Shown here one piece after another: positions 1,295-57,885 of a stretch of DNA of 64,000 nucleotides. The notes below the pieces were generated by a model. The model was not told the DNA's origin and made no database searches. It was given only the letters and a program-made list of their open reading frames with translations. The stretch's first letter is position 1. Each line of letters starts with the position of its first letter. The stretch spans positions 62,001 through 126,000 of the forward strand of contig NZ_BALE01000009.1 of assembly GCF_000963885.1 (NCBI RefSeq), read 5' to 3'. Source of the DNA: Tanticharoenia sakaeratensis NBRC 103193. GTDB lineage: Bacteria > Pseudomonadota > Alphaproteobacteria > Acetobacterales > Acetobacteraceae. The position numbers and the translations under genes are program-made.

Positions 1295-2131
1295 TCAGAT
1301 CGCAAGAGCTGCGCCATCGCGCAGGATGGCTTTGGCGGCATCTGTAAAACGCCCGTCCTGATCGTGCAGCACGAGGCCGGGCGCCAGAATGGCGTCGCCG
1401 CGCCCACCGAGCACGGCGCGGATCAGGCATAGTCGCGCCGCGCGCCCCGTCTTCGGCCAGAGCGGCATGAGAACGGCCGAGCCGAATCCTTCCGCACGTA
1501 GCGCGGCAAAAGCCGAATCCATCAGTGCGGAGGGCAGGGCGAGCGTCAGCGTGCCGCGATGCCGAAGGAACGGCCTGAGTGCCCCGATCCAGATATCGAG
1601 CACGTTGGCAGGCGCGGTCCGCGCCAGGCGGCGTCGTGCCTGATCCGGAACGCTCGCCTGGGCGCGATGCCATGGCGGGTTTGCAAACACGTGGTGCACC
1701 GTGCCGCGGGACGATTCGAGCGACGAGACGTCTGGAAGCAATGTGTGATGAACGGGCCACGCACCGAAGCCGTTGGCGGCGAGGTTCATCCGGGCAAGGG
1801 CTGCGGTCGCTCCGTCCCCCTCCAGCCCAACGCCCAACAGACCGGGCACGCGCGCGCCAAGGCACAGAAGACCCGCGCCTGCGCCACATCCGGCCTCGAG
1901 CACGCACTGCCCGGGACGGGCGGGCACGAACGCCGCCATCAGCACCGGCTCGAGCCCCGTGCGATGTCCGTGTCGAAATTGCCGGTAGGCAACACGACCG
2001 TCCAGAAGCGAGTCGGATGTCATCGAATCGCCCACCGTGGCATCAGGTGCGCTGCCCGCCCCGAAATCATGGGCGCCCACGGCCGTCTTAAAGACGGCGG
2101 GCGGGTTGACCGCCTTGAACGTGCCGCTCAT
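1295..2131 (-). CDS. TrmN6-like tRNA1(Val) adenine-N6 methyltransferase
   Basis: A predicted SAM-dependent N6-adenine methyltransferase of 278 residues. The SAM-binding glycine motif LEAGCGAGAG lies at residues 78-87, and the amino-methyltransferase catalytic motif NPPW at 151-154 follows a hydrophobic strand, as in TrmN6/YfiC, which modifies A37 of tRNA1(Val). The characteristic entry sequence DGRVAYRQFRHGHRTGLEPV precedes it. The ATG at 2131 has a GGGGA about six bases upstream. An in-frame ATG at 2023 fits the usual family start slightly better but has no clear ribosome site. The reading frame continues upstream without family similarity. The gene is divergent from the polyprenyl synthase gene with only 38 bases between start codons. 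The exact tRNA target is inferred from the family. Confidence 0.82.
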   Translation of the reverse strand: MSGTFKAVNPPAVFKTAVGAHDFGAGSAPDATVGDSMTSDSLLDGRVAYRQFRHGHRTGLEPVLMAAFVPARPGQCVLEAGCGAGAGLLCLGARVPGLLGVGLEGDGATAALARMNLAANGFGAWPVHHTLLPDVSSLESSRGTVHHVFANPPWHRAQASVPDQARRRLARTAPANVLDIWIGALRPFLRHRGTLTLALPSALMDSAFAALRAEGFGSAVLMPLWPKTGRAARLCLIRAVLGGRGDAILAPGLVLHDQDGRFTDAAKAILRDGAALAI

Positions 2132-2169
2132 ATCTTCCCCTGCCTTCGAGCCTGAACTGGAGAGCTGTC

Positions 2170-3231
2170 TTGGGTGTAGCCGTTGATCTGCAGGACGCTG
2201 GTGCGTCGGCGAACCCCGGGCCGGAGAAATCCGGTCACGAGAGCGCGCTGCATGCCCTGGCCGATTATCTGGCAGACGACATGCTCGCCTGCAACAAGGC
2301 GATCGTTGCCCGGATGGATAGCCCGGTCCCGCTGATCCCGCAGCTTGGCGCGCATCTGGTAGCAGCCGGAGGCAAGCGCCTGCGACCGCTGCTGACGCTC
2401 GCCTCCGCACGCCTCTGTGGATACGAGCCCGGCCCTGACGCGCAGCGCCATGTAGGTCTCGCGGCGTGCGTGGAATTCATCCATACGGCAACTCTTCTGC
2501 ATGATGACGTGGTCGATGAAAGCACCCTGCGTCGCGGTCTGGCGTCGGCCAATGCGGTTTTCGGCAACAAGGCGTCCGTGCTTGTCGGCGATTTCCTGTT
2601 CGCCCGATCCTTCCAGCTCATGACCGACGACGGGTCGCTGAAGGTCATGGCGATCCTGTCCAACGCATCCGCCACCATCGCTGAAGGCGAAGTGCTGCAG
2701 ATGGCGACCCAGAACGATCTCTCGACGCCGATCGATCGCTATCTCGACGTGATCCACGGCAAGACAGCTGCACTTTTCGCGGCAGCCTGTCGCGTCGGGG
2801 CCGTTGTCGCGGGACGGCCGGAAGCGGACGAACTGGCGCTCGAGACCTTCGGCACCAATCTCGGCATGGCATTTCAGCTTGTCGACGATGCACTCGATTA
2901 CGCTGCCGACCAGCAGACGCTCGGCAAGACGGTCGGGGACGACATGCGGGAAGGCAAGATCACGCTTCCTGTCCTGGCTGCGTTCCATGCGGCGAAAACG
3001 GAGGAGGAGCGGGCATTCTGGAGCCGCGTCATCGAGAGCGGGGAGCAGACGGAAGCCGACCTGCCTCGTGCACTTGACCTGATCGCGCAGACCGGGGCGA
3101 TCGAGATCACGCTGGCCCGAGCCGCGACTTATGCCGAAATGGCCGTGGCCGCTCTGGCGAGCTTCCCCGACAGCGAGATCAAGCGGCTTCTAGTCGAGAC
3201 GGCGTCCTACACGGTCAGCCGGGCACGCTGA
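2170..3231 (+). CDS. ispB: Long-chain polyprenyl diphosphate synthase (octa/decaprenyl)
   Basis: A trans-polyprenyl diphosphate synthase of 353 residues that elongates farnesyl diphosphate with isopentenyl units to make the ubiquinone side chain. The first aspartate-rich motif DDVVD is at residues 112-116 and the second DDALD at 239-243. The residues before the first motif are small or aliphatic (HTATLL), typical of long-chain enzymes, unlike the bulky residues of the short-chain farnesyl synthase also present at 52.2-53.1 kb. Chain length (C40 or C50) cannot be read from the sequence; acetic acid bacteria generally make Q-9 or Q-10. The start is a TTG with GGAGAG just upstream. Confidence 0.92.
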   Translation: MGVAVDLQDAGASANPGPEKSGHESALHALADYLADDMLACNKAIVARMDSPVPLIPQLGAHLVAAGGKRLRPLLTLASARLCGYEPGPDAQRHVGLAACVEFIHTATLLHDDVVDESTLRRGLASANAVFGNKASVLVGDFLFARSFQLMTDDGSLKVMAILSNASATIAEGEVLQMATQNDLSTPIDRYLDVIHGKTAALFAAACRVGAVVAGRPEADELALETFGTNLGMAFQLVDDALDYAADQQTLGKTVGDDMREGKITLPVLAAFHAAKTEEERAFWSRVIESGEQTEADLPRALDLIAQTGAIEITLARAATYAEMAVAALASFPDSEIKRLLVETASYTVSRAR

Positions 3232-3306
3232 TCCGGCCACGGGCGACGTTGCCCACAGCCGCATGCGTCGGAACTGAAATCGGAAAAATCGGAGCCGTTC
3301 TTCGGT

Positions 3307-3337
3307 CCGGCCCGCAGGCAGGAAGCCTGCGGGCCGG
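3307..3337. terminator. Strong bidirectional terminator hairpin
   Basis: A perfect 13-bp stem (CCGGCCCGCAGGC / GCCTGCGGGCCGG) with the 5-base loop AGGAA, placed between the convergent ispB stop (3231) and levansucrase stop (3346). It has no long T-run on either side. Confidence 0.75.
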
Positions 3338-3345
3338 GATGAAGT

Positions 3346-4965
3346 TCAGTTCACCGATGCGCCGGACAGGAAGTCCCGTGCAGCCTGCTCGGTGGCCCGC
3401 GCCGTCGACGCTCCCTGCGTGGTCGCAAGGCCTGCCGACAGGGCAGCGGACACGGTGGTCGGCGACGACAGGTTCTGGATCAGATCCCAGAAGTCGATGT
3501 TGATCCTGTTGGGCGAGATGTCGCCGTAGCCGCCGAGACCACCGGCGCCGTAGCCAAGATTGATGGACGAGCCCGCGCCGCGCAGGAAGACCTGCACCGT
3601 CGGTGCCAGTGTGCCGCCGCGCCGGGTCTGGACCGTGTCGATGAACGATTCGACGAGGCTGCCCGGCATGTAATAGTGCGAGTAGCTCTGGAACGCGTTC
3701 GGGTTCTGGCTCGGGTCAGGCGCGTAGTCGGCACCGGCCGCTGTGTTGAGGTCGGTCGGATTGCCGAGCATCAGCCCGCTGTTCCTGTTCAGCGGAACAT
3801 AGTCGCTGCGGATGCCATAACCCATGAACCCGTATGCCCCGTCCGGGCCGTCGATCCCGGCAGCGAACGTCGTCCGATGGCTGATGGTCAGCAGATAATA
3901 GCGGTTCCCGACGATATGCATTTCGGGACGTTCGGTCTGGTCGTTCACGCAGTTGCCCGACACGAGCGGCGGCAGGAATTTCCAGGCCGAGAGATCGGGC
4001 TTCGTCGCGACGGCGAGGCCGATATTGGCGCGCTGATAGATCGCACCGGATGTGTTCACCGCATCGACCGTCTCGGCGTACGGATCGTTGGCCCGGTAGC
4101 CCAGATCCGAGGCATCGCAGGGTGTCTCGCCGCGAACACCCGCCGAGTTGCCCTCGAACACCATGAACGTCTGGCCCGGATGCGCAGGATCATGGAAGGT
4201 GAACGGATCGCGGAAGGAGAAGAACTCGTTCTGCAGGCGGGTCTGATAATAGACGCCGTCAGGCTGCAGGAGGGCTGTGTGCGTCGTAAAGCCCGTGAAC
4301 CAGACATGATGGAAATCGGCGTGGATCTGACCGTCCGTTTTCGTGATAGTCGCCTGCGGAGCGGAAATGTTGCCGCCGGACGCATCCCGGTTGAAGGCAA
4401 GGTCGGTATAGAACGTCGTCAGCTGGTTGCCGCCGAGCTGCATGAGACGGGTCGAGCCGGACCATTCGGCCTGCTGCGTGTAGGGCTGGCCGGTATAGAC
4501 CTGCGCGCTGGCGCCATCGGGGAAAACATTGCCGCCGTAGATCCAGCCGCCGGCCACCGGCCGTCTGGACTCGGGGATTCCGGTGCGACGATAGAAGAAG
4601 CCGATGCGCGCATGGACATGGCGGTCGTCAAAACCGTAGCCAGCGTTCTGCTGCGCCGTCAGGCAGAAGATGACGTCCCAGCCATTGTAGCTGTACTGGT
4701 TGCCGTCCGCATCGGTCAGGGGCCAGGTGTCCCAGACCCAGACCGTCCCGCCGATGGTCGGGAAGCTGACGGGGATCGCGGGCATCGTCAGCGCCGACGG
4801 CATCGAATTCGCGCCGGTCGGCACGTTCGGATCGGACATCGCCTTGATCTGGCGCGCGTCGGCACGGGTCCATTTGGCCGTATAACTCTCGTACGGATCG
4901 TGCGCCGCGCCGGTATGGATCGTCGGTTGCGGGTAACCGGGTTCCAGGGGAAGGCGCTCAGCCAT
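3346..4965 (-). CDS. Levansucrase, GH68, lacking a signal peptide
   Basis: A GH68 fructosyltransferase that transfers fructose from sucrose to a growing levan chain or to water. All three catalytic carboxylates are present: nucleophile D79 in VWDTW, transition-state stabiliser D253 in FRDPF, and acid/base E345 in QTERP. Their spacing (174 and 92 residues) is the same as D135/D309/E401 reported for Gluconacetobacter diazotrophicus LsdA, so this 539-residue protein is about 56 residues shorter at the N-terminus. The LsdA signal peptide has no counterpart. Upstream in frame there is no ATG, GTG or TTG between 4965 and a stop at 5047-5049, so no secreted version can start here. The sequence just before the ATG is the end of a methyltransferase fragment in another frame. 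The enzyme core looks intact. Its secretion and its promoter are open questions. Confidence 0.9.
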   Translation of the reverse strand: MAERLPLEPGYPQPTIHTGAAHDPYESYTAKWTRADARQIKAMSDPNVPTGANSMPSALTMPAIPVSFPTIGGTVWVWDTWPLTDADGNQYSYNGWDVIFCLTAQQNAGYGFDDRHVHARIGFFYRRTGIPESRRPVAGGWIYGGNVFPDGASAQVYTGQPYTQQAEWSGSTRLMQLGGNQLTTFYTDLAFNRDASGGNISAPQATITKTDGQIHADFHHVWFTGFTTHTALLQPDGVYYQTRLQNEFFSFRDPFTFHDPAHPGQTFMVFEGNSAGVRGETPCDASDLGYRANDPYAETVDAVNTSGAIYQRANIGLAVATKPDLSAWKFLPPLVSGNCVNDQTERPEMHIVGNRYYLLTISHRTTFAAGIDGPDGAYGFMGYGIRSDYVPLNRNSGLMLGNPTDLNTAAGADYAPDPSQNPNAFQSYSHYYMPGSLVESFIDTVQTRRGGTLAPTVQVFLRGAGSSINLGYGAGGLGGYGDISPNRINIDFWDLIQNLSSPTTVSAALSAGLATTQGASTARATEQAARDFLSGASVN

Positions 4966-5510
4966 CTCTCGATCTCGCCATCGGAGAACGTGAGCCGCAC
5001 ATGCGCGTGGTTCTCGCGCAACTTGCGAAAAGTGTGGGTAGCGAAATCAACGATCAGAAGTGGAGCGTCTGGCTCGAGAACGCGCGAGGCTTCGGCAATG
5101 GCAGCTGCGGGGCGTTGGATGTAACGCAGAACCTGATGCAGCATCGCGAGACCGCATACACGCGCGGGGACCGGAAGCGCATACATGTCGCTCTGCTTGA
5201 GGGCGATCTTCGTCAGGCCGGCGCGGTCCAGCTTGCGCCGCGCGACCCGCAGCATTGCCGGGCTGCAATTGAGCGCTGTCAGTTCGGAAGCGCGATCGGC
5301 CGGAAGCTCGATCATCCGTCCTGCCCCTGTTCCCACATCGAGCACGCACCCGAGAGGTCCGGCAAGGAGGATGGCAGCGATTGTCGCTTCCACCTCCTGC
5401 TCTGCGACGTGCAACGACCGGATGACATCCCGGTTTGCGGCATGTGTTTCAAAATAATCCTCGGCAGATGCCGTCCGAACCGCCTTGATCGCCGAAAGCC
5501 TCGCCGAGTC
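4950..5510 (-). pseudogene. Internal fragment of an ArsR-type regulator/SAM methyltransferase fusion
   Basis: About 185 codons match the C-terminal methyltransferase half of the ArsR-family regulators that carry a SAM methyltransferase domain and are usually found beside metF or other methionine genes. Recognisable blocks are IRSLHVAEQEVEA, the SAM motif VLDVGTGAGRM, DMYALP, LHQVLRY and LLIVDF. The whole N-terminal HTH domain and the last part of the protein are missing. The open frame runs on at both ends (5564 down to 4788) into unrelated sequence. The usual acidic residue after the SAM motif is replaced (ALNCS), and a few residues are lost around PARVCGLAM, both consistent with decay. The 3' end runs straight into the levansucrase start codon in another frame. 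I read this as a pseudogene. Confidence 0.72.
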
Positions 5511-5521
5511 GCTCACCAGCC

Positions 5522-5695
5522 ATGCTGTCGGTATTGAACATGGTCGGGCTGCTGCGGGCCGCATCCGAGCGATTGCTGGCGGGGCGGCTGTGGGTAAACC
5601 CGGACTGCGGGCTCAAGACACGAGGCTGGACCGAGCTGAAGTCCGCGATTGCGAACATGGCGGAAGCTGCACGCATGCTGCGCGCCGGAGGCTGA
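5522..5695 (+). pseudogene. metE: 3' remnant of metE (cobalamin-independent methionine synthase)
   Basis: Fifty-seven codons ending in TGA at 5693-5695 encode the C-terminus of MetE. The block [14 protein letters not shown], which holds the last zinc-ligand cysteine of the family, is unmistakable, and [13 protein letters not shown] before it also fits. Similarity stops abruptly near 5522 and there is an in-frame stop at 5486-5488, so more than 90 percent of the gene is gone. It lies head to head with the methyltransferase fragment and ends four bases before the end of murI. It is a non-functional relic. Confidence 0.8.
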
Positions 5696-5698
5696 ACC

Positions 5699-6529
5699 TC
5701 AGGCGGCGACTGTCTCGAGGCAATCGTTGCCGGCATACCCCAAGGCCCGCAGTGCGAGACTGAATTCGCGGCCACGCGGCGCGGGCGCGGTCAGCGTGAC
5801 CCGTTCAGGCTCCTGATCGCGGCAGGCGAAAGGCCCGATGGCCGAGAGGATCGCCGCTGCGTGCCGCGCAACGGCAGGGGCGGGATCGAGCCACAGGAAT
5901 GTCCGATCACGTTCCGCAGACAGACGTTCGAACTGCGGCAGGAGCACGGAATAATGCGTGCAGCCCAGTCCGATTGCATCGATTGCATCGCCGCCCGGCT
6001 GGCCGAGCAACGCGTCGAGTTCCTGCGCGATCAGCGCATCCGCCACGAGTTCTCCGACGAACGCTCGTTCGGCAAGATCCGCCAGATGTCTGGCGCCATG
6101 CAGCACGAGACGGCAATCGGGCGCGAAACGGGCACGTAGCTCGGCGACGTATGGTCGCCGGACTGTCGCTGACGTGGCCAGCAACCCTATGGTGCGGGTC
6201 TTCGAGACGCGACCGGCCCATCGGATCGGCGGCACACAGCCAACGAAAGGCACGCCGAGCCTGGCCCGCAGGGCGGGCAGGGCGATCGTGCTGGCGGTGT
6301 TGCAGGCGACGACGACAAGGTCGTAGGCGCGCGCCCGACAGGCTATGTCGATCAGATCGACAATCCGCGCGGTCAGCGGCGCATCCGGCTGCTCGCCATA
6401 TGGGAACAGCGCGGTATCGGCGAGATAGTCGATGCGCGCGTGGGGCAGCGTGTTCCGCAGGGCCCGGACGACACCGAGTCCCCCGATCCCCGAATCGAAG
6501 ACGAGCAGCCGGCCGACCGCACCGTCCAT
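5699..6529 (-). CDS. murI: Glutamate racemase
   Basis: Converts L- to D-glutamate for peptidoglycan in the cytoplasm. The 276-residue protein has the N-terminal FDSGIGGLGV with catalytic-site D12, the two catalytic cysteines C76 (ACNTAS) and C190 (GLGCTHY), and H192 after the second. The start was set at the ATG that overlaps the pyrE stop as TGATG, giving a normal length; the frame is open 26 codons further upstream, inside pyrE. The overlap implies translational coupling to pyrE. Its 3' end abuts the metE relic, so the deletion that removed metE stopped just short of this essential gene. Confidence 0.94.
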   Translation of the reverse strand: MDGAVGRLLVFDSGIGGLGVVRALRNTLPHARIDYLADTALFPYGEQPDAPLTARIVDLIDIACRARAYDLVVVACNTASTIALPALRARLGVPFVGCVPPIRWAGRVSKTRTIGLLATSATVRRPYVAELRARFAPDCRLVLHGARHLADLAERAFVGELVADALIAQELDALLGQPGGDAIDAIGLGCTHYSVLLPQFERLSAERDRTFLWLDPAPAVARHAAAILSAIGPFACRDQEPERVTLTAPAPRGREFSLALRALGYAGNDCLETVAA

Positions 6530-7278
6530 CAGGCGCCGGCCTTGTCCTTCAGTGCCTGTGCTTCCTCGACGCTTCCGACACCGCCGTGCCGCTTCGACCA
6601 GGCGCATGGATCTTCAAGAAAACGCCGCACTTCGGCGCTGTCGCTTTCCGAGAAATAGGGCTGGCCGGCGCAGGCTTCCAGCACGTCCCACCATGTGCAC
6701 AGCGAATGTAGGGCAATGTTCATGTCCCCGAGCGTGCGATGCGCCCCGGGAAACACGCCATAGAAGAACACGACGAAGGTATGGTTCACGATCGCGCCGG
6801 CGTTGCGCAGCGCATTGGCGAACTGGATCTTGGAGGCGCCGTCGGTCGTCAGATCCTCGACCAGAAGCGTGCGCATGCCTTCCGGCACGTCGCCCTCGAT
6901 CTGCGCGTTGCGGCCGAAGCCTTTGGGCTTTTTCCGGACATAGGCCATCGGCGCCATCATCCGGTCCGCGATCCATGCCGCGAACGGAATGCCGGCCGTC
7001 TCGCCGCCGACGACTGCATCGATGCTCTCGAAGCCGATGTGCCGCTGGATCTTCTCGACGCCCAGTTCGACGATCTTCGCGCGCGCCCGGGGGAAGAAGA
7101 TGATCCGCCGGCAGTCGATATAGACGGGCGAGCGCCAGCCCGAGGTCAGGGTGTAGGGATCCTCGGGACGAAAGTTGATCGCCTTGATCTCGAGCAGGAT
7201 GCGCGCGGTGGTCAACGCAGCGTCGCGGTCCCATGGAGTCGTCTGGGAAGAGGTGAGGGGGCCGGCGGGTTGGCTCAC
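6529..7278 (-). CDS. pyrE: Orotate phosphoribosyltransferase
   Basis: Condenses orotate with PRPP to orotidine 5'-phosphate in pyrimidine synthesis. The PRPP-binding signature is seen as TLLVEDLTTDGASK, with the phosphate-binding loop VVGGETAGIP upstream and the N-terminal block YTLTSGWRSPVYID, which is typical of the longer alphaproteobacterial enzymes. I place the start at a GTG (7278), which has a GGAG ten bases upstream and gives 249 residues. The frame is open to an ATG at 7392, but those extra 38 residues look like leader sequence, not protein. The gene shares its stop with the murI start. Confidence 0.92.
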   Translation of the reverse strand: MSQPAGPLTSSQTTPWDRDAALTTARILLEIKAINFRPEDPYTLTSGWRSPVYIDCRRIIFFPRARAKIVELGVEKIQRHIGFESIDAVVGGETAGIPFAAWIADRMMAPMAYVRKKPKGFGRNAQIEGDVPEGMRTLLVEDLTTDGASKIQFANALRNAGAIVNHTFVVFFYGVFPGAHRTLGDMNIALHSLCTWWDVLEACAGQPYFSESDSAEVRRFLEDPCAWSKRHGGVGSVEEAQALKDKAGA

Positions 7279-7736: not shown

Positions 7737-9035
7737 TCAGACCCGCTCGGCAAGCGGGATGAAGTCGCGCGGCGGAGCGCCGATATAGAGCTGGCGCGGA
7801 CGGCCGATGCGCTGGCCGTCTTCCCCGATCATTTCCCGCCACTGGCTGATCCAGCCAGCCGTTCGCGCGACAGCGAACAGAACCGTGAACATCGACGTCG
7901 GGATGCCAAGGGCCTTCAGGATCAGGCCTGAATAGAAATCGACGTTCGGGTAGAGCTTCCGGCTGACAAAATATTCGTCCTCGATGGCGATGCGCTCGAG
8001 TTCGACCGCCAGATCGAGCAGCGGATCACGGGCGAGGCCCAGCTCCGCCATCACTTCATGATATGTCGCCTGAAGAATCTTCGCGCGCGGATCGAAGTTC
8101 TTGTAGACGCGATGGCCAAATCCCATCAGGCGCACACCGCTGCCGCGACGCTTCACCTGCGCGATGAATTCCGGAATTTTGTCCTTCGTACCGATCTTCG
8201 CAAGCATGCCGAGCACGGCCTCGTTCGCGCCGCCATGGGCAGGCCCCCACAGCGCCGCAATGCCGGCCGAGATGCAGGCGAACGGGTTTGCACCGGTCGA
8301 GCCTGCAAGACGCACGGTCGAGGTCGACGCGTTCTGCTCATGGTCGGCGTGCAGGACGAGGATACGATCCAGCGCCCGGGCCAGAACCGGGTTGACCACG
8401 TATCGCTTGTTCGGCTGGGTGAACATCATGGCGAGGAAATTGCCCGCGTAGGTCCGCTCTTCGCTTGGATAGACGTACGGCTCGCCGATCGTATATTTGT
8501 AGGCCCATGCGGCAAGCGTCGGAAGCTTGGCGATCAGGCGACGCGCCGACAGATCGCGCGACGCCTCGTTCGAGATGTCGATTGCCTCGTGATAGAAGGC
8601 GGAGAGTGCGCCTACGGTTCCGCAGAGGATCGCCATCGGATGCGCATCGCGGCGGAAGCCGTTGAAGAAATTGCGAATCTGCTCGTGCAGCAGGGAATGT
8701 TCGGAAATGTCGTGCCGGAATGCCGCATATTCGGCTTCGGTCGGCAGCTCGCCGTAGAGAAGCAGATAAGCGACTTCGGGGAAGCTCGCCTGCAGCGCGA
8801 GTTGCTCGATCGGATAGCCGCGATGGAGCAGGATGCCCTGCTCGCCGTCGATATAGGTGATGGCGCTGCGGCAGGCGGCCGTTTCGCCGTAACCGGGATC
8901 GAAGGCAAGGACACCGGCATCGGCCGCCAGTCTGCGGATGTCCACGACATCCGGCCCGATCGTGCCCGACAGCACCGGCAGGTTCATGACCCGGCCATCC
9001 AGGGTGATTGTGGCGTGCCGTGCTGTTTCGTCCAT
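7737..9035 (-). CDS. gltA: Citrate synthase (type II)
   Basis: Condenses oxaloacetate and acetyl-CoA to citrate, entering the TCA cycle. The 432-residue protein carries the catalytic triad of the family: H267 in GPAHGGAN, H308 in [13 protein letters not shown] and D366 in NVDFYSG. The N-terminal beta-rich extension and the length match the hexameric, NADH-sensitive Gram-negative type. It is monocistronic, with 75 bases separating it from the next minus-strand gene. In acetic acid bacteria citrate synthase is linked to acetate resistance in several species; nothing in the local sequence addresses that here. Confidence 0.97.
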
Positions 9036-9110
9036 GCCGATCGTTCCGTTCGTGTCGATAAACCTTGTCGAGACGCAATAAATGGCACGGGCCGGGTTGG
9101 CAAATAGCGC

Positions 9111-9650
9111 TTACGGCCGCAGCAGCCCTGTCAGGTCCGCACGCCCGGGCCGCAGATCGCCCCAGTCGCCCGTGATATCGAAAATCGCGAGGCTCGCGGG
9201 CGGGTATCCCTGCGTCAGGGACGCAAACTCCGGTGCGTCGATGGCATCCCCCGCCAGCTTGAGCACGAGATGATAAAGGCCGGGGTTATGCCCGACCACC
9301 ATCAGGGAGGCATCCGCTCCTGTCTCGCGAATGACATCGAGGATCGTTTCGCAATCCGCGTTGTAGAGCGCGGGGTCGGTCGTGATGGCAGGGCGCGGCC
9401 CGTCTGCCGCCAACACATCTGCAACCCGCTCCGCCGTCTGGCATGTCCGACGCGCGGGGCTGGCCAGAATTTCCAGCGTCGACAAGTCCGTCATGCGCGA
9501 GAGATGCGCCGCGATCCTGCTTGCCTCCGCCTCGCCGGACGACGTCAGCACCCGGGCGAGATCGGCATCATCGCCCATCTCGCGCGCCGGGCCGGTCGTG
9601 GCATGGCGCAGCAGGAAGAGACGGCGGCCTTCCGCGTCGCGCTCGTTCAT
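9111..9650 (-). CDS. SixA-like histidine phosphatase family protein
   Basis: A 179-residue member of the histidine phosphatase superfamily. The catalytic phospho-acceptor histidine is in LFLLRHATT (H16), and the second histidine is in VVGHNPGL. This short architecture fits SixA and related small phosphatases, which act on phosphohistidine or small phosphoesters; the substrate is not visible. The ATG overlaps the stop of the chorismate mutase gene (ATGA), so the two are translationally coupled. It has no signal peptide. Confidence 0.83.
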   Translation of the reverse strand: MNERDAEGRRLFLLRHATTGPAREMGDDADLARVLTSSGEAEASRIAAHLSRMTDLSTLEILASPARRTCQTAERVADVLAADGPRPAITTDPALYNADCETILDVIRETGADASLMVVGHNPGLYHLVLKLAGDAIDAPEFASLTQGYPPASLAIFDITGDWGDLRPGRADLTGLLRP

Positions 9651-9955
9651 GCAGCGGCGTCCCGCGCGATCGCCTCATGATGCCGGATGACCTCGCGGAT
9701 GATGAAGGAGAGGAACTTCTCCGCAAAATCCGGGTCCAGATGGGCATCCTCTGCGAGTTTCCGCAGGCGTGTGATCTGGTGCTGTTCGCGTGCCGGGTCG
9801 GCAGGCGGCATCTGGGCGGTGGCCTTCAGGCGGCCGACGGCCTTGGTCTGGCGAAAGCGTTCGGCCAGCATATGGACCAGCGCCGCATCGATGTTGTCGA
9901 TGCTCTGGCGCAGCGTCTCCAGCTCGGCGCGGGCGTCTTCTGGTGTCACGGACAT
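9647..9955 (-). CDS. Chorismate mutase, AroQ class
   Basis: A 102-residue, all-helical, monofunctional chorismate mutase that makes prephenate for phenylalanine and tyrosine. The N-terminal pattern LRQSIDNIDAALVHMLAER with the active-site arginine pair, the lysine in AVGRLKA and the C-terminal helix with IIREVIRHHE fit the AroQ family. There is no fused prephenate dehydratase or dehydrogenase. It is 26 bases downstream of a metallophosphatase gene and overlaps the SixA-like gene by four bases, so the three form a probable operon. Confidence 0.88.
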   Translation of the reverse strand: MSVTPEDARAELETLRQSIDNIDAALVHMLAERFRQTKAVGRLKATAQMPPADPAREQHQITRLRKLAEDAHLDPDFAEKFLSFIIREVIRHHEAIARDAAA

Positions 9956-9981
9956 GGAGCGGTTTCGGATCCCTTGCAGTT

Positions 9982-10659
9982 CTAGAACTCGTCGAGGTCG
10001 ATCCAGGCCAGATGGCCGCCCTTGCCGGCGCCGAGATCCGTGAAGATTGCGCGCCCGCCACGGCGACCGGTCCTGACCCAGGGTCTGCCGTCGGTGGAAC
10101 GACGATCATGGCCGCAATAGACCGTGTGTCCACCAGGAATATGATCGATCCAGCTCAGACGCCGCTCCGGATAGCCGTCCGGCTGCATCCGGCCCGTCGT
10201 TTCGCCGAACAGGGCGCGTGAGAGCAGGGGAGTGACCTCGCCCAGGACCGGCGGCGGTGGCTCATGCAGCATGCGCGTGTGAAAGCCGCCGTGCAGCAGC
10301 GTGATGCGGCCGAAATGCAGCCACGCCGGGGCCTGCGCGATGGCAGCCAGCGCACGTTCTCCAAGGTCTTCGTCCGGCGCCCGGGCGATCTGGCGCAACG
10401 TGTCTTCCAGGGCGCGATCGCGGCGGAGCTTGCGCCCCTCCAGCGCCCGGCCGAGCTTGCGGTCATGGTTTCCCGCGACGAACAGGCCACGGCCTTCCTC
10501 GATCATGTCGAGCATCAGCCGCAGCGCACCCGCACTGTCTGGTCCATGATCGACCAGATCGCCGAGCTGAATGACGAAGCGGTTCGTATGGGCGGCATGC
10601 TCGAAGGCATGAATATCGCCATGCACGTCGCCCACGATCCGCAGGCCGCGTTCCCGCAC
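9982..10659 (-). CDS. Calcineurin-like metallophosphoesterase
   Basis: A 225-residue PPP-type metallophosphatase. All metal-binding blocks are present in order: GDVHG, GDLVDHG, GNHD, LLHGGF and CGHD. This set is seen in bacterial diadenosine tetraphosphatase-like and PrpE-like enzymes as well as protein phosphatases, so the substrate is undetermined. The start is a GTG and no in-frame ATG lies nearby upstream. It is the first gene of a probable three-gene unit with chorismate mutase and the SixA-like phosphatase. Confidence 0.83.
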   Translation of the reverse strand: MRERGLRIVGDVHGDIHAFEHAAHTNRFVIQLGDLVDHGPDSAGALRLMLDMIEEGRGLFVAGNHDRKLGRALEGRKLRRDRALEDTLRQIARAPDEDLGERALAAIAQAPAWLHFGRITLLHGGFHTRMLHEPPPPVLGEVTPLLSRALFGETTGRMQPDGYPERRLSWIDHIPGGHTVYCGHDRRSTDGRPWVRTGRRGGRAIFTDLGAGKGGHLAWIDLDEF

Positions 10660-10836
10660 GACCGTGCCCAGAGCCGTCTGGGAGGACGGCTGGGGCGTCG
10701 ATGCGACAGACGGGAGCGGAAACTCGGAAATGGTCGGTCTCGCGTTTGCAGAATTGAAAGGGTCAGGCCGGACACCGGGTAACGCGCGCGCCGCCCGAAA
10801 GTGTCATGCCATTACCGCATCAATATACCCGAAGAG

Positions 10837-10849
10837 CCCGACCATCGGG
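10837..10849 (-). terminator. Short hairpin downstream of smc
   Basis: A 5-bp stem (CCCGA/TCGGG) with a 3-base loop, followed on the minus strand by CTCTT, seven bases beyond the smc stop. It is a weak terminator candidate. Confidence 0.35.
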
Positions 10850-10855
10850 TTAATA

Positions 10856-13800
10856 TCATGCAGGGGCGACCATCTCGACCGCGCGCGACAGATCGACCGA
10901 CAGCACCCGGCTGACGCCGCGCTCCTGCATCGTGACGCCGTAGAGCCGATCCATGTGCGCCATTGTCGTCTGATGATGGGTCACCACGAGAAAGCGCGTG
11001 CCGCATTGCGCCGCCATGTCGGCCAGCAGCGCACAGAAGCGCTCCACATTGGCATCATCAAGCGGCGCATCGACCTCGTCCAGCACGCAGATCGGCGCCG
11101 GATTGCACAGATGGGTCGCAAAGATCAGCGACAGTGCGGTCAGCGCCTGTTCCCCGCCCGACAGAAGAGACAGTGCGGACAGGCGCTTGCCGGGCGGCTG
11201 GGCATAGATCTCAAGCCCTGCCTCAAGGGGATCGTCGCTCCCGATCAGGGCCAGATGCGCGCGACCGCCGCCGAACATGCGCGAGAACAGCGTCTGGAAA
11301 TGCTTGTCGACTTCGGCAAAGACCGCCGACAGGCGCGCACGGCCCTCCTTGTTCAGCGACCCGATCGATCCGCGCAGGCGTTCGATGGCTTCGGTCAGCT
11401 CGCCACACTCGCGCGTCAGCGTCTCAAGCTGCTCCCGGGCCGCATCGAACTCGAGATCGGCGCGCAGATTGACCGGGCCGAGATCGTCGCGCTCGCGCAG
11501 CAGGCGGGCGATCTTGCGCTTGAGGCTGGTTTCCGTCTGGTCCGACAAATCTTCGGGCGTGATGGCGGGAGGAGGCCGGTCCGGCTCGTCGCCAAGGAGC
11601 CGCGCCAGTGCCTCGCCAGCCTGTGTCGCACGCTCGGCACTGGCGGTGAGCTCCGCGCGGGCGCGGGCAAGGCCGGCATCAGCCTCGCGTCGTGCTACGG
11701 CCGCTTCGCTCTGGGCGCGCACACACGCCTCAGCGTGCCTGTCGGCCGCGCGCCAGACATCTTCCGCCTCGGCACAGGCCCGCGCGCGCGCCGCGTGGTC
11801 TGCCGAGAGGGACGCCGGATTGTGGGTCGCGGCTTCGGCCTCGGCGCGCAAGGCCGATACGCGCGCCTCGAGCGTCGCCTTGTCGGCGGCCAACTGAGCC
11901 AAGCGCGGACCGAGATCGTCGATCCGCCGGGTCAGGGCCTCGAGCGCCGCATCGGTCTGTGCCTGTTCGGCAGAGACCGTCGCCAGTTCGGCGCGCAGCG
12001 CATTTTCATCGACGCGTGCCGCATCGGCTGCCGCCCGTGCGTCCTGCCATGCGGCATGGGCCACATCGGGGTCTTCAAGCTGTGTTGCGGCCGCCAGCAG
12101 TGCTGCGTGTGCGTCCCGCGCCGCCGCAAGACTCGTCCGCAGGGCTTCGAGGCGCGGCGACAGGGCCGAGATACGACTGCCACCCGCAATGGCACGTTCG
12201 GAAACGTCCCGCCTGATGGCTTCGGCCTGCGCCGTGACATTGCGCGCACGCGCCTCGTCGGTCGCGGCCGTGTCGCGCAGACAGGTCGCATCGGTCAGAG
12301 CGGCCGTGGCAGCCGCATCGGCGGCGGCAGTCGTGGCGGGATCGGCCGCGTTTGCGCGCGCGTCAGCCAGCGCCGCAAGCCTGCTTTGCGTCTCGGCCAG
12401 TGCCGCACGCGCATTCTCGAGCGCGGGTTCGCGCAAGCCCAGTGTCCCGCGTGCACTACGCTCTGCGGCCAGAGAATCCTCGCGGGCAGCACGCGCGGAA
12501 TCGAGCTGGGCCCGGGCGGCTTCCCGCACGCGTCGCGCATCGGACAAGGCTGCCCCTGCCGCGTTCTGCTCTGCCTGAACGCGGGCTGCTCGTGTTTCGA
12601 GGTCTCGATGGTCGGCGACGGAATCGACCGCAGCCTTTGCCTGCTGGAGCGTGGCATCCGCTGATGCTTCGCGTGCGAGAGCCTGTTCATGCTGCGACTG
12701 CGCCGTCTCGAGACGCGCCCGGGCCGAATCGGCTGCGATCCGCAATTGTGCTGCGGCTGATCGGGCATCGGAAGCTGCCCGTTCTTCAGTCTGCCTGCGC
12801 GTGCGGGCATCGCGCAGGCTCGTATCCTCGGCCGCAAACGCCGTGCGTGCGGCGTTCAAGGCCGTCTCGATCGCCCCGGTCTGCGTCTCGACCTCGGCTA
12901 TTTCGCGCGCGCAGGCCGCCAGTTGCGCCTGCTGAGCCAGGCGGCGGGCCGCCGGGCTCGGTGCACCGGCGCGCGCCGCCAGGCCGTCGGCGCGCCACAA
13001 TGCCCCCTCGGCGGTGATCAGGGTCTGGCCGGCCTGCAGCGCCGCATGAAGGCGGGCTCCGGTCGCAGCGTCCGGCACAAGTCCGATCGCACCGAGCGCG
13101 CGTTCCAGCCCGGCGGGTGGCGCGACCAATGAGGCCAACGGGACCGCACCGTCCGGCAGTGCCTGCCCGGCTACGGGCGGCAGTGCGACCCAACGCCGTG
13201 CCGCATCCGCGGATTCGCCGGGCAGGGTGGCGTCCAGCCCGTCGCCCAGGGCAGCGGCGACACCCGCGATCAGCGCCTCGGGCACATCCAGCGCCTCGGC
13301 GGCCGTCCGGCCTGTCGCACCTGCCTCGGCCGGTGCGCTGGCGGCAAGCGTTGCGATCAGGCCCTCATGCTGGGCACGCAGGCGCACAAGCGCCGAATCG
13401 TGGGCGCGGGCGGCGTCTTCGGCTTTCGAGAGGACCTTGCGCAGCGAAACCAGCCGCACTTCCGCGGCCTCGATCTCCGAGATCGTGTTGCCGAAGGCTC
13501 GTTCAGTCTGCGTCTGTGCCGCTTCGGCCTCTGCCAGACGCTCGGGATCGGGCTGCGCGCTCCTGGCGTTCTCCAACGCCGTCCCGGCTGCGCATGCCTG
13601 ACCCGATGCTGCCTCTGCGGCCTTTTCGGCGGCGGCCAGCGCTTCTCGGGCGAGCTTCTGTCGCGCCTGGGCATCACGTGCCGCAGACTCGGCCTCGAGA
13701 CGCGCCTGGGTCGCGGCGGACAGGGCTTCTGCTGCCGCGTCCTCATTCCTCTGGGCGGTGGCGAGTGCTTCTGTCGCCTGTTCGAACGCGACGGTGTGGG

Positions 13801-57811: not shown

Positions 57812-57885
57812 TGGGAGATAGTTTAGCGGTAGAACTACCGGCTCTGACCCGGTCAGCCCTGGTTCGAATCCAGGTCTCCCAGCCA
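57812..57885 (+). tRNA. tRNA-Gln (anticodon CUG)
   Basis: A complete 74-base cloverleaf with encoded CCA. The acceptor stem is TGGGAGA/TCTCCCA, D-stem GTTT/GAAC, anticodon stem ACCGG/CCGGT with loop CTCTGAC (anticodon CTG at loop positions 3-5), variable loop of 4, and T-stem CCTGG/CCAGG with TTCGAAT. The discriminator is G and the first base is U, as is typical for glutamine tRNAs. It reads CAG. Confidence 0.96.

Follow-up and report, generated by a model that had tools for sequence, protein, structure and literature searches.

Between the genes ispB and murI of Tanticharoenia sakaeratensis NBRC 103193, the joined leftovers of metE, of sahR and of a levansucrase gene occupy a block of 2.4 kb. 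How did the three pieces come to lie end to end, and what does their presence say about the synthesis of methionine in this organism? The window, by which we mean the whole stretch of 64,000 nucleotides that was analysed (contig NZ_BALE01000009.1, positions 62,001 to 126,000), contains the following features at this place, given in window coordinates (G001 is one of the comparison genomes):

2170..3231, plus strand: ispB (polyprenyl diphosphate synthase-type), left flank; an open reading frame whose homologues, 67-82% identical, lie beside murI in relatives
3300..3344, no strand: hairpin separating the stop codon of ispB from that of the levansucrase; the arms of this inverted repeat are 20 nt long and 85% complementary
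3346..4965, minus strand: LsdA-like levansucrase (GH68), 539 aa; Pfam GH68 E 3e-141 and an alignment with 14 homologues; core complete, N-terminal leader and linker gone
4962..4965, minus strand: joint 2, ATGG, in which the levansucrase start codon overlaps TGG, the final codon of the sahR homology
4962..5510, minus strand: relic of an ArsR-methyltransferase (SahR-type) regulator, equivalent to residues 107-289 of 319 in G001, without the helix-turn-helix head and the C-terminus
5510..5695, plus strand: metE relic, the last 61 codons and the stop; Pfam, NCBIfam and alignment with G001; 2 of 21 invariant positions changed
5699..6607, minus strand: murI (glutamate racemase), right flank; Pfam Asp_Glu_race E 6.9e-14, NCBIfam TIGR00067 147.8 bits (cut-off 146.65)

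The matches to metE, to the methyltransferase and to GH68 are far above chance, and the joints between the pieces are free of filler. The homologies of metE and sahR meet at about 5510, the levansucrase ATG (4965-4963) overlaps the sahR TGG (4964-4962), and the stop codons of murI and of the metE relic are 3 bp apart. An earlier, sequence-only reading of this DNA had described a metE tail, a headless ArsR-methyltransferase and a levansucrase in this arrangement and had taken them for a deletion scar; the three-piece observation was confirmed, and the scar reading proved largely right, with corrections. The metE tail does lie on the plus strand and end at 5695, and it comprises 61 codons and a stop rather than the 57 codons reported; the internal codons of the regulator, on the minus strand as described, number 183 in the multiple alignment and not about 185; and the run of the sahR relic without a gap into the levansucrase start codon was borne out by the overlap of the two codons. 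The hairpin is a possible two-way terminator, and a terminator scan requiring a T run found none. The name ispB comes from similarity judged by eye and from the sequence-only reading.

The metE tail matches positions 269-323 of 324 in Pfam Meth_synt_2 (E 1e-12) and 688-746 of 750 in the NCBIfam MetE model. Its nucleotides 5510-5683 align with residues 690-747 of the 759-aa MetE of G001. Only these residues remain; nothing is left of the N-terminal domain that binds folate (PF08267) or of the remainder of the catalytic domain, and a search of the whole genome for PF08267 (Meth_synt_1) gave no match and no metE head. No enzyme would be expected from such a tail. Twelve homologues each change 0-2 of 21-23 invariant positions, against 2 of 21 here, and the tail is too short for judging constraint.

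The adjoining relic is recognised by Pfam Methyltransf_11 (E 2.9e-16). The name SahR-type is taken from SahR, an ArsR-family regulator that responds to SAH and controls SAM-cycle genes (PMC4239095). Pairwise alignment with residues 107-289 of the 319-aa SahR of G001 extends over 5519-4956, and multiple alignment places the homology at 5510-4962. The N-terminal ArsR-type DNA-binding domain is absent, since the homology begins at G001 residue 107. SahR carries a methyltransferase-like domain, and the fold family of this ligand domain is recognised in the relic, with its conserved positions not fully kept. The expected neighbourhood of SAM-cycle and methionine genes is present, in that the metE relic abuts and is divergent, as in relatives. 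Over its 183 codons the frame is still open, with no stop and no frameshift, and 50 of 60 positions invariant in 15 homologues are retained. Ten are changed, whereas in a leave-one-out comparison each of the 15 homologues changes only 0-4 of 60-64 such positions; the relic thus reads as a pseudogene. Among the changed residues is the Asp of the FDRSP stretch, which in such enzymes presumably binds the ribose of SAM. The relic is also less alike than the IspB distance predicts in all 11 comparisons, with z between -0.3 and -3.3, the prediction being fitted to 55 further pairs that are not mutually independent. A second SahR match was sought in the genome and none was found. A working regulator would not be expected from this piece.

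The third piece is of a different kind. The GH68 catalytic core of the levansucrase is complete, while an export leader is, by eye, absent. The N-terminus is longer in 13 of the 14 aligned homologues, again with a hydrophobic leader as judged by eye; the exception, G022, is also cut. The first Met aligns with an internal Met of the six closest sequences, and upstream of it lie 27 open codons without ATG, GTG or TTG. In the 493-residue 1w18 chain, the enzyme of Gluconacetobacter diazotrophicus, residues 4-492 are matched, and the folding part of the levansucrase is therefore complete. The comparison with this enzyme, LsdA (1w18; PMC2765452), shows the whole crystallised core matched, an identity of 65-67%, and the export leader absent here. 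In G. diazotrophicus the levansucrase is exported by means of a leader and a type II system, according to PMC2765452. The 5' end of the gene is truncated, export has probably been lost, and we infer that the enzyme would be either cytosolic or unexpressed. The sequence-only reading was right that the levansucrase had been placed against the methionine remnants; it missed that the levansucrase is itself beheaded. Four of 202 invariant positions are changed, compared with 0-14 of 202-216 in each of the 14 homologues, so that the gene is as constrained as its homologues and may still be in use; its core is either still maintained or was recently broken.

A comparable case is the plasmid levansucrase of Kozakia baliensis DSM 14400, an LsdA-like gene also broken in its N-terminal part. 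There it is reported to be interrupted by a mobile element (PMC5050591), whereas here the gene is fused to a sahR relic. The levansucrase of G022 (L060) is a second N-terminally cut LsdA-like sequence, at nearly the position of a K. baliensis plasmid copy, and is probably the interrupted K. baliensis plasmid gene. In 80 levansucrase loci queried with sahR and metE, neither was found beside the levansucrase at 1e-10. The contig of the window carries another GH68 gene at a distance of about 117 kb (L251 1974-3335, plus strand); its product has 453 aa and no evident leader.

What did the methionine part of the block look like before? We compared 15 SahR-type loci, 14 from relatives and the G001 locus. 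An intact metE lies directly beside sahR and divergent from it in 11 of the 15, and metF follows sahR in 12, the exceptions being G001, G150 and G053. In G233 the metE beside sahR is reduced to its tail; in G292 and G189 metE is about 7.5 kb from sahR; in G138 there is no metE in the 14 kb around sahR, and no match at 1e-10 in the genome. The relics have the same orientation as the intact metE/sahR pairs, and a single deletion of about 2.5 kb would therefore explain the metE/sahR joint. In content, order and orientation, the two methionine genes resemble the metE-sahR(-metF) locus of acetic acid bacteria (PMC4239095); they differ from it in having lost nine tenths of metE, the promoter region that the two genes share and the head of the regulator, and in the absence of metF. 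The same paper puts metE under SahR control in 29% of the SahR-bearing genomes of the groups concerned.

We are confident, therefore, that the block represents an eroded methionine locus, with metE divergent from sahR and probably metF next, together with a neighbouring LsdA-type levansucrase gene. One deletion, about 2.5 kb as measured on G001, would have removed the DNA between metE codon 690 and sahR codon 107, including the promoter region common to both genes. Another would have begun near sahR codon 289 and ended in the levansucrase leader, probably taking metF with it, and would have left the internal Met as the first start codon of the levansucrase. We infer the courses of both deletions; what is observed is the set of pieces with their orientation and filler-free joints, the intact locus in relatives and the loosened constraint on SahR. 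The comparison genomes come from other genera of the family, and any order of events is tentative. A loss of metF at this place would be the more conditional step, because three of the 15 sahR loci have no metF after sahR. The suggestion that at least two deletions or rearrangements had struck a metE/ArsR-methyltransferase locus thus holds, given the intact divergent pairs in relatives and the lost constraint on the SahR relic.

An independent metE scar was found in G233 (L189), where MetE residues 611-748 only are left beside intact sahR and metF:

8781-9188, minus strand: metE tail
9465-10403, plus strand: sahR (312 aa)
10430-11299, plus strand: metF

This scar is like ours in that metE has been cut to a tail beside sahR, and unlike it in that sahR and metF are intact and the deletion ends elsewhere. 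In G266 (L255, 3332-4578, minus strand), metE has a break near residue 506, and no residue earlier than 331 was found at that locus; this is either another decaying metE or a mis-assembly.

The site of the block was compared in 24 murI loci of relatives from 23 genomes, in 17 of which ispB lies within the stretch taken; in the other seven there is no ispB in roughly 1.5 kb of flank. Sixteen of the 17 have the two genes as convergent neighbours; the stop codons are separated by 2-143 bp in 15 of these and by 609 bp in the other, and some pairs overlap. In the remaining locus, L218, they run in the same direction, 850 bp apart. In the window the distance between the stop codons is 2467 bp. With ispB and murI standing tail to tail in relatives, the 2.4-kb block is, by this comparison of gene order, extra here. 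An intact methionine locus next to murI, proposed earlier as the arrangement to be sought in relatives, was not found in these loci: no locus of a relative joined sahR or metE to ispB or murI, and the intact locus lay elsewhere. An insertion-sequence scar is not supported, as of the 11 direct and 8 inverted short repeats found, none has arms at both block edges, and a tRNA at 57812 is the only RNA gene found in the window.

Could the pieces nevertheless be in use, or have come together in another way? The frame of the SahR relic is open for 258 codons, from 5564 into the levansucrase DNA, with most invariant positions kept, and the core of the levansucrase is under constraint and, judged by the 1w18 chain, complete. 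This would fit a relic that is in use as a headless methyltransferase-like protein, with local transcription driving an intracellular levansucrase. However, its 10 changed positions, the FDRSP Asp included, compare with a maximum of 4 in any of the 15 homologues, the first part of the 258-codon frame is metE antisense, and a search of 3200-5800 for sigma-70-like promoters, which has little power in this bacterial group, found none; we consider such use improbable. Instead, the block might have been acquired from another organism as a finished mosaic, a plasmid being one conceivable vehicle, and have had no function here at any time. It is extra between ispB and murI, and plasmids do carry LsdA-like levansucrase genes, as in the acetic acid bacterium K. 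baliensis. Against such an arrival, which we regard as very improbable, the genome contains no other metE or SahR match, as expected from the decay of its own copies, the GC content of the pieces (0.62-0.66) compares with 0.60-0.68 in the neighbours, and no repeats fit both block edges.

That the joints are sequencing or assembly errors is hardly credible. The DNA does come from a single draft assembly of 94 contigs, but both joints lie inside one 255-kb contig, and neither the metE head, nor the levansucrase leader part, nor a second SahR was found elsewhere in the genome searches made. Moreover, the relic carries accumulated changes, which an error would not produce. The erosion of a metE-sahR locus is of an ordinary, already known kind of genomic object, a deletion scar; in literature searches on levansucrase, on ArsR-methyltransferase and metE, on MesD/MesX and on metE pseudogenes, the titles and abstract beginnings found did not describe this one. 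For annotators, the levansucrase ORF, the "methyltransferase" ORF and the metE fragment here are best treated as truncation products and not as new genes.

If metE and its regulator are gone, how is methionine made? The sequence-only reading had left two options, reliance on MetH or methionine auxotrophy. Auxotrophy as the default reading is rejected, because MetH and a MesD/MesX-type pair are both present in the genome. MetH is 1185 aa long and scores 1228.8 with TIGR02082 (cut-off 1010.85). Elsewhere in the genome, a 342-aa core methionine synthase, a short MetE-like protein recognised by Meth_synt_2 and by NF006589 (675.4 bits, cut-off 392), lies beside MesX (PF08908, 573 bits, cut-off 25) and a LysR-type regulator. 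We call this pair MesD/MesX-type from profiles and adjacency, the identity limit for MesD being about 72% in PMC7857596. MesD/MesX makes methionine without methyl-folate or B12 and requires oxygen, according to the same paper. We propose, from these gene assignments, that methionine may be made by MetH, by the MesD/MesX-type pair, or by both, encoded elsewhere than in the block.

The genome search suggested by the earlier reading thus recovered MetH and neither a metE head nor a canonical metF. The best metF candidate in the genome is a diverged 310-aa protein with 19.9 bits (cut-off 24) and 32.1 bits with TIGR00676 (cut-off 293.7). Its gene overlaps folD by 4 bp:

L252 2936-3868, minus strand: MetF-like 310-aa gene
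L252 3865-4719, minus strand: folD

A comparable diverged MetF-like protein of Acinetobacter probably has another function in the judgement of Price and colleagues (PMC7857596). On the other hand, eleven genomes of the family with a strong MetE have weak PF02219 matches only (weaker than 1e-7), and a twelfth, G088, has none, which suggests that a diverged protein may supply methyl-folate in this family; the 310-aa protein may accordingly be an unrecognised methylene-folate reductase.

The distribution of these genes was examined in 299 genomes of the family, counting species and not independent events. A strong MetE was defined by E below 1e-100, partial genes included and the first three candidates being scored in most genomes, and a strong metF by E below 1e-20, its absence in G257 being assigned by elimination. 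MesX is present in 25 genomes and a strong MetE in 106, the two together only in G016 (p 2.8e-4, uncorrected for kinship), so that 24 of the 25 MesX genomes have no strong MetE match. A strong metF occurs in 10 of the 25 MesX genomes versus 238 of the 274 others (p 4e-7, uncorrected for kinship), and is thus lacking in 15 and 36, respectively. It is tempting to speculate that MesD/MesX made the folate route dispensable, and that the scar is a replaced metE-sahR-metF locus in the course of disappearing, a process repeated across acetic acid bacteria. We offer this only tentatively and think it somewhat doubtful. Two observations speak against simple replacement: both MesX and a strong MetE are lacking in 169 genomes, and no MesX match was found in G233, in which metE is scarred as well.

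What deserves following up is how MesD/MesX relates to the loss of the folate route. One route to methionine has decayed in a genome that still holds others, and it is rare for the remnant of an old locus and its possible replacement pathways to stand in one genome. Here the remnant can be seen together with the intact locus of relatives, a second, independent scar and the remaining methionine synthases, so that MesD/MesX can be weighed against the loss of MetE, SahR and canonical MetF. Immediately left of the block, the longest ORFs of ispB and of a methyltransferase-like gene (1295-2410, minus strand) share 241 bp in head-to-head orientation, and the true starts of both genes are probably internal.
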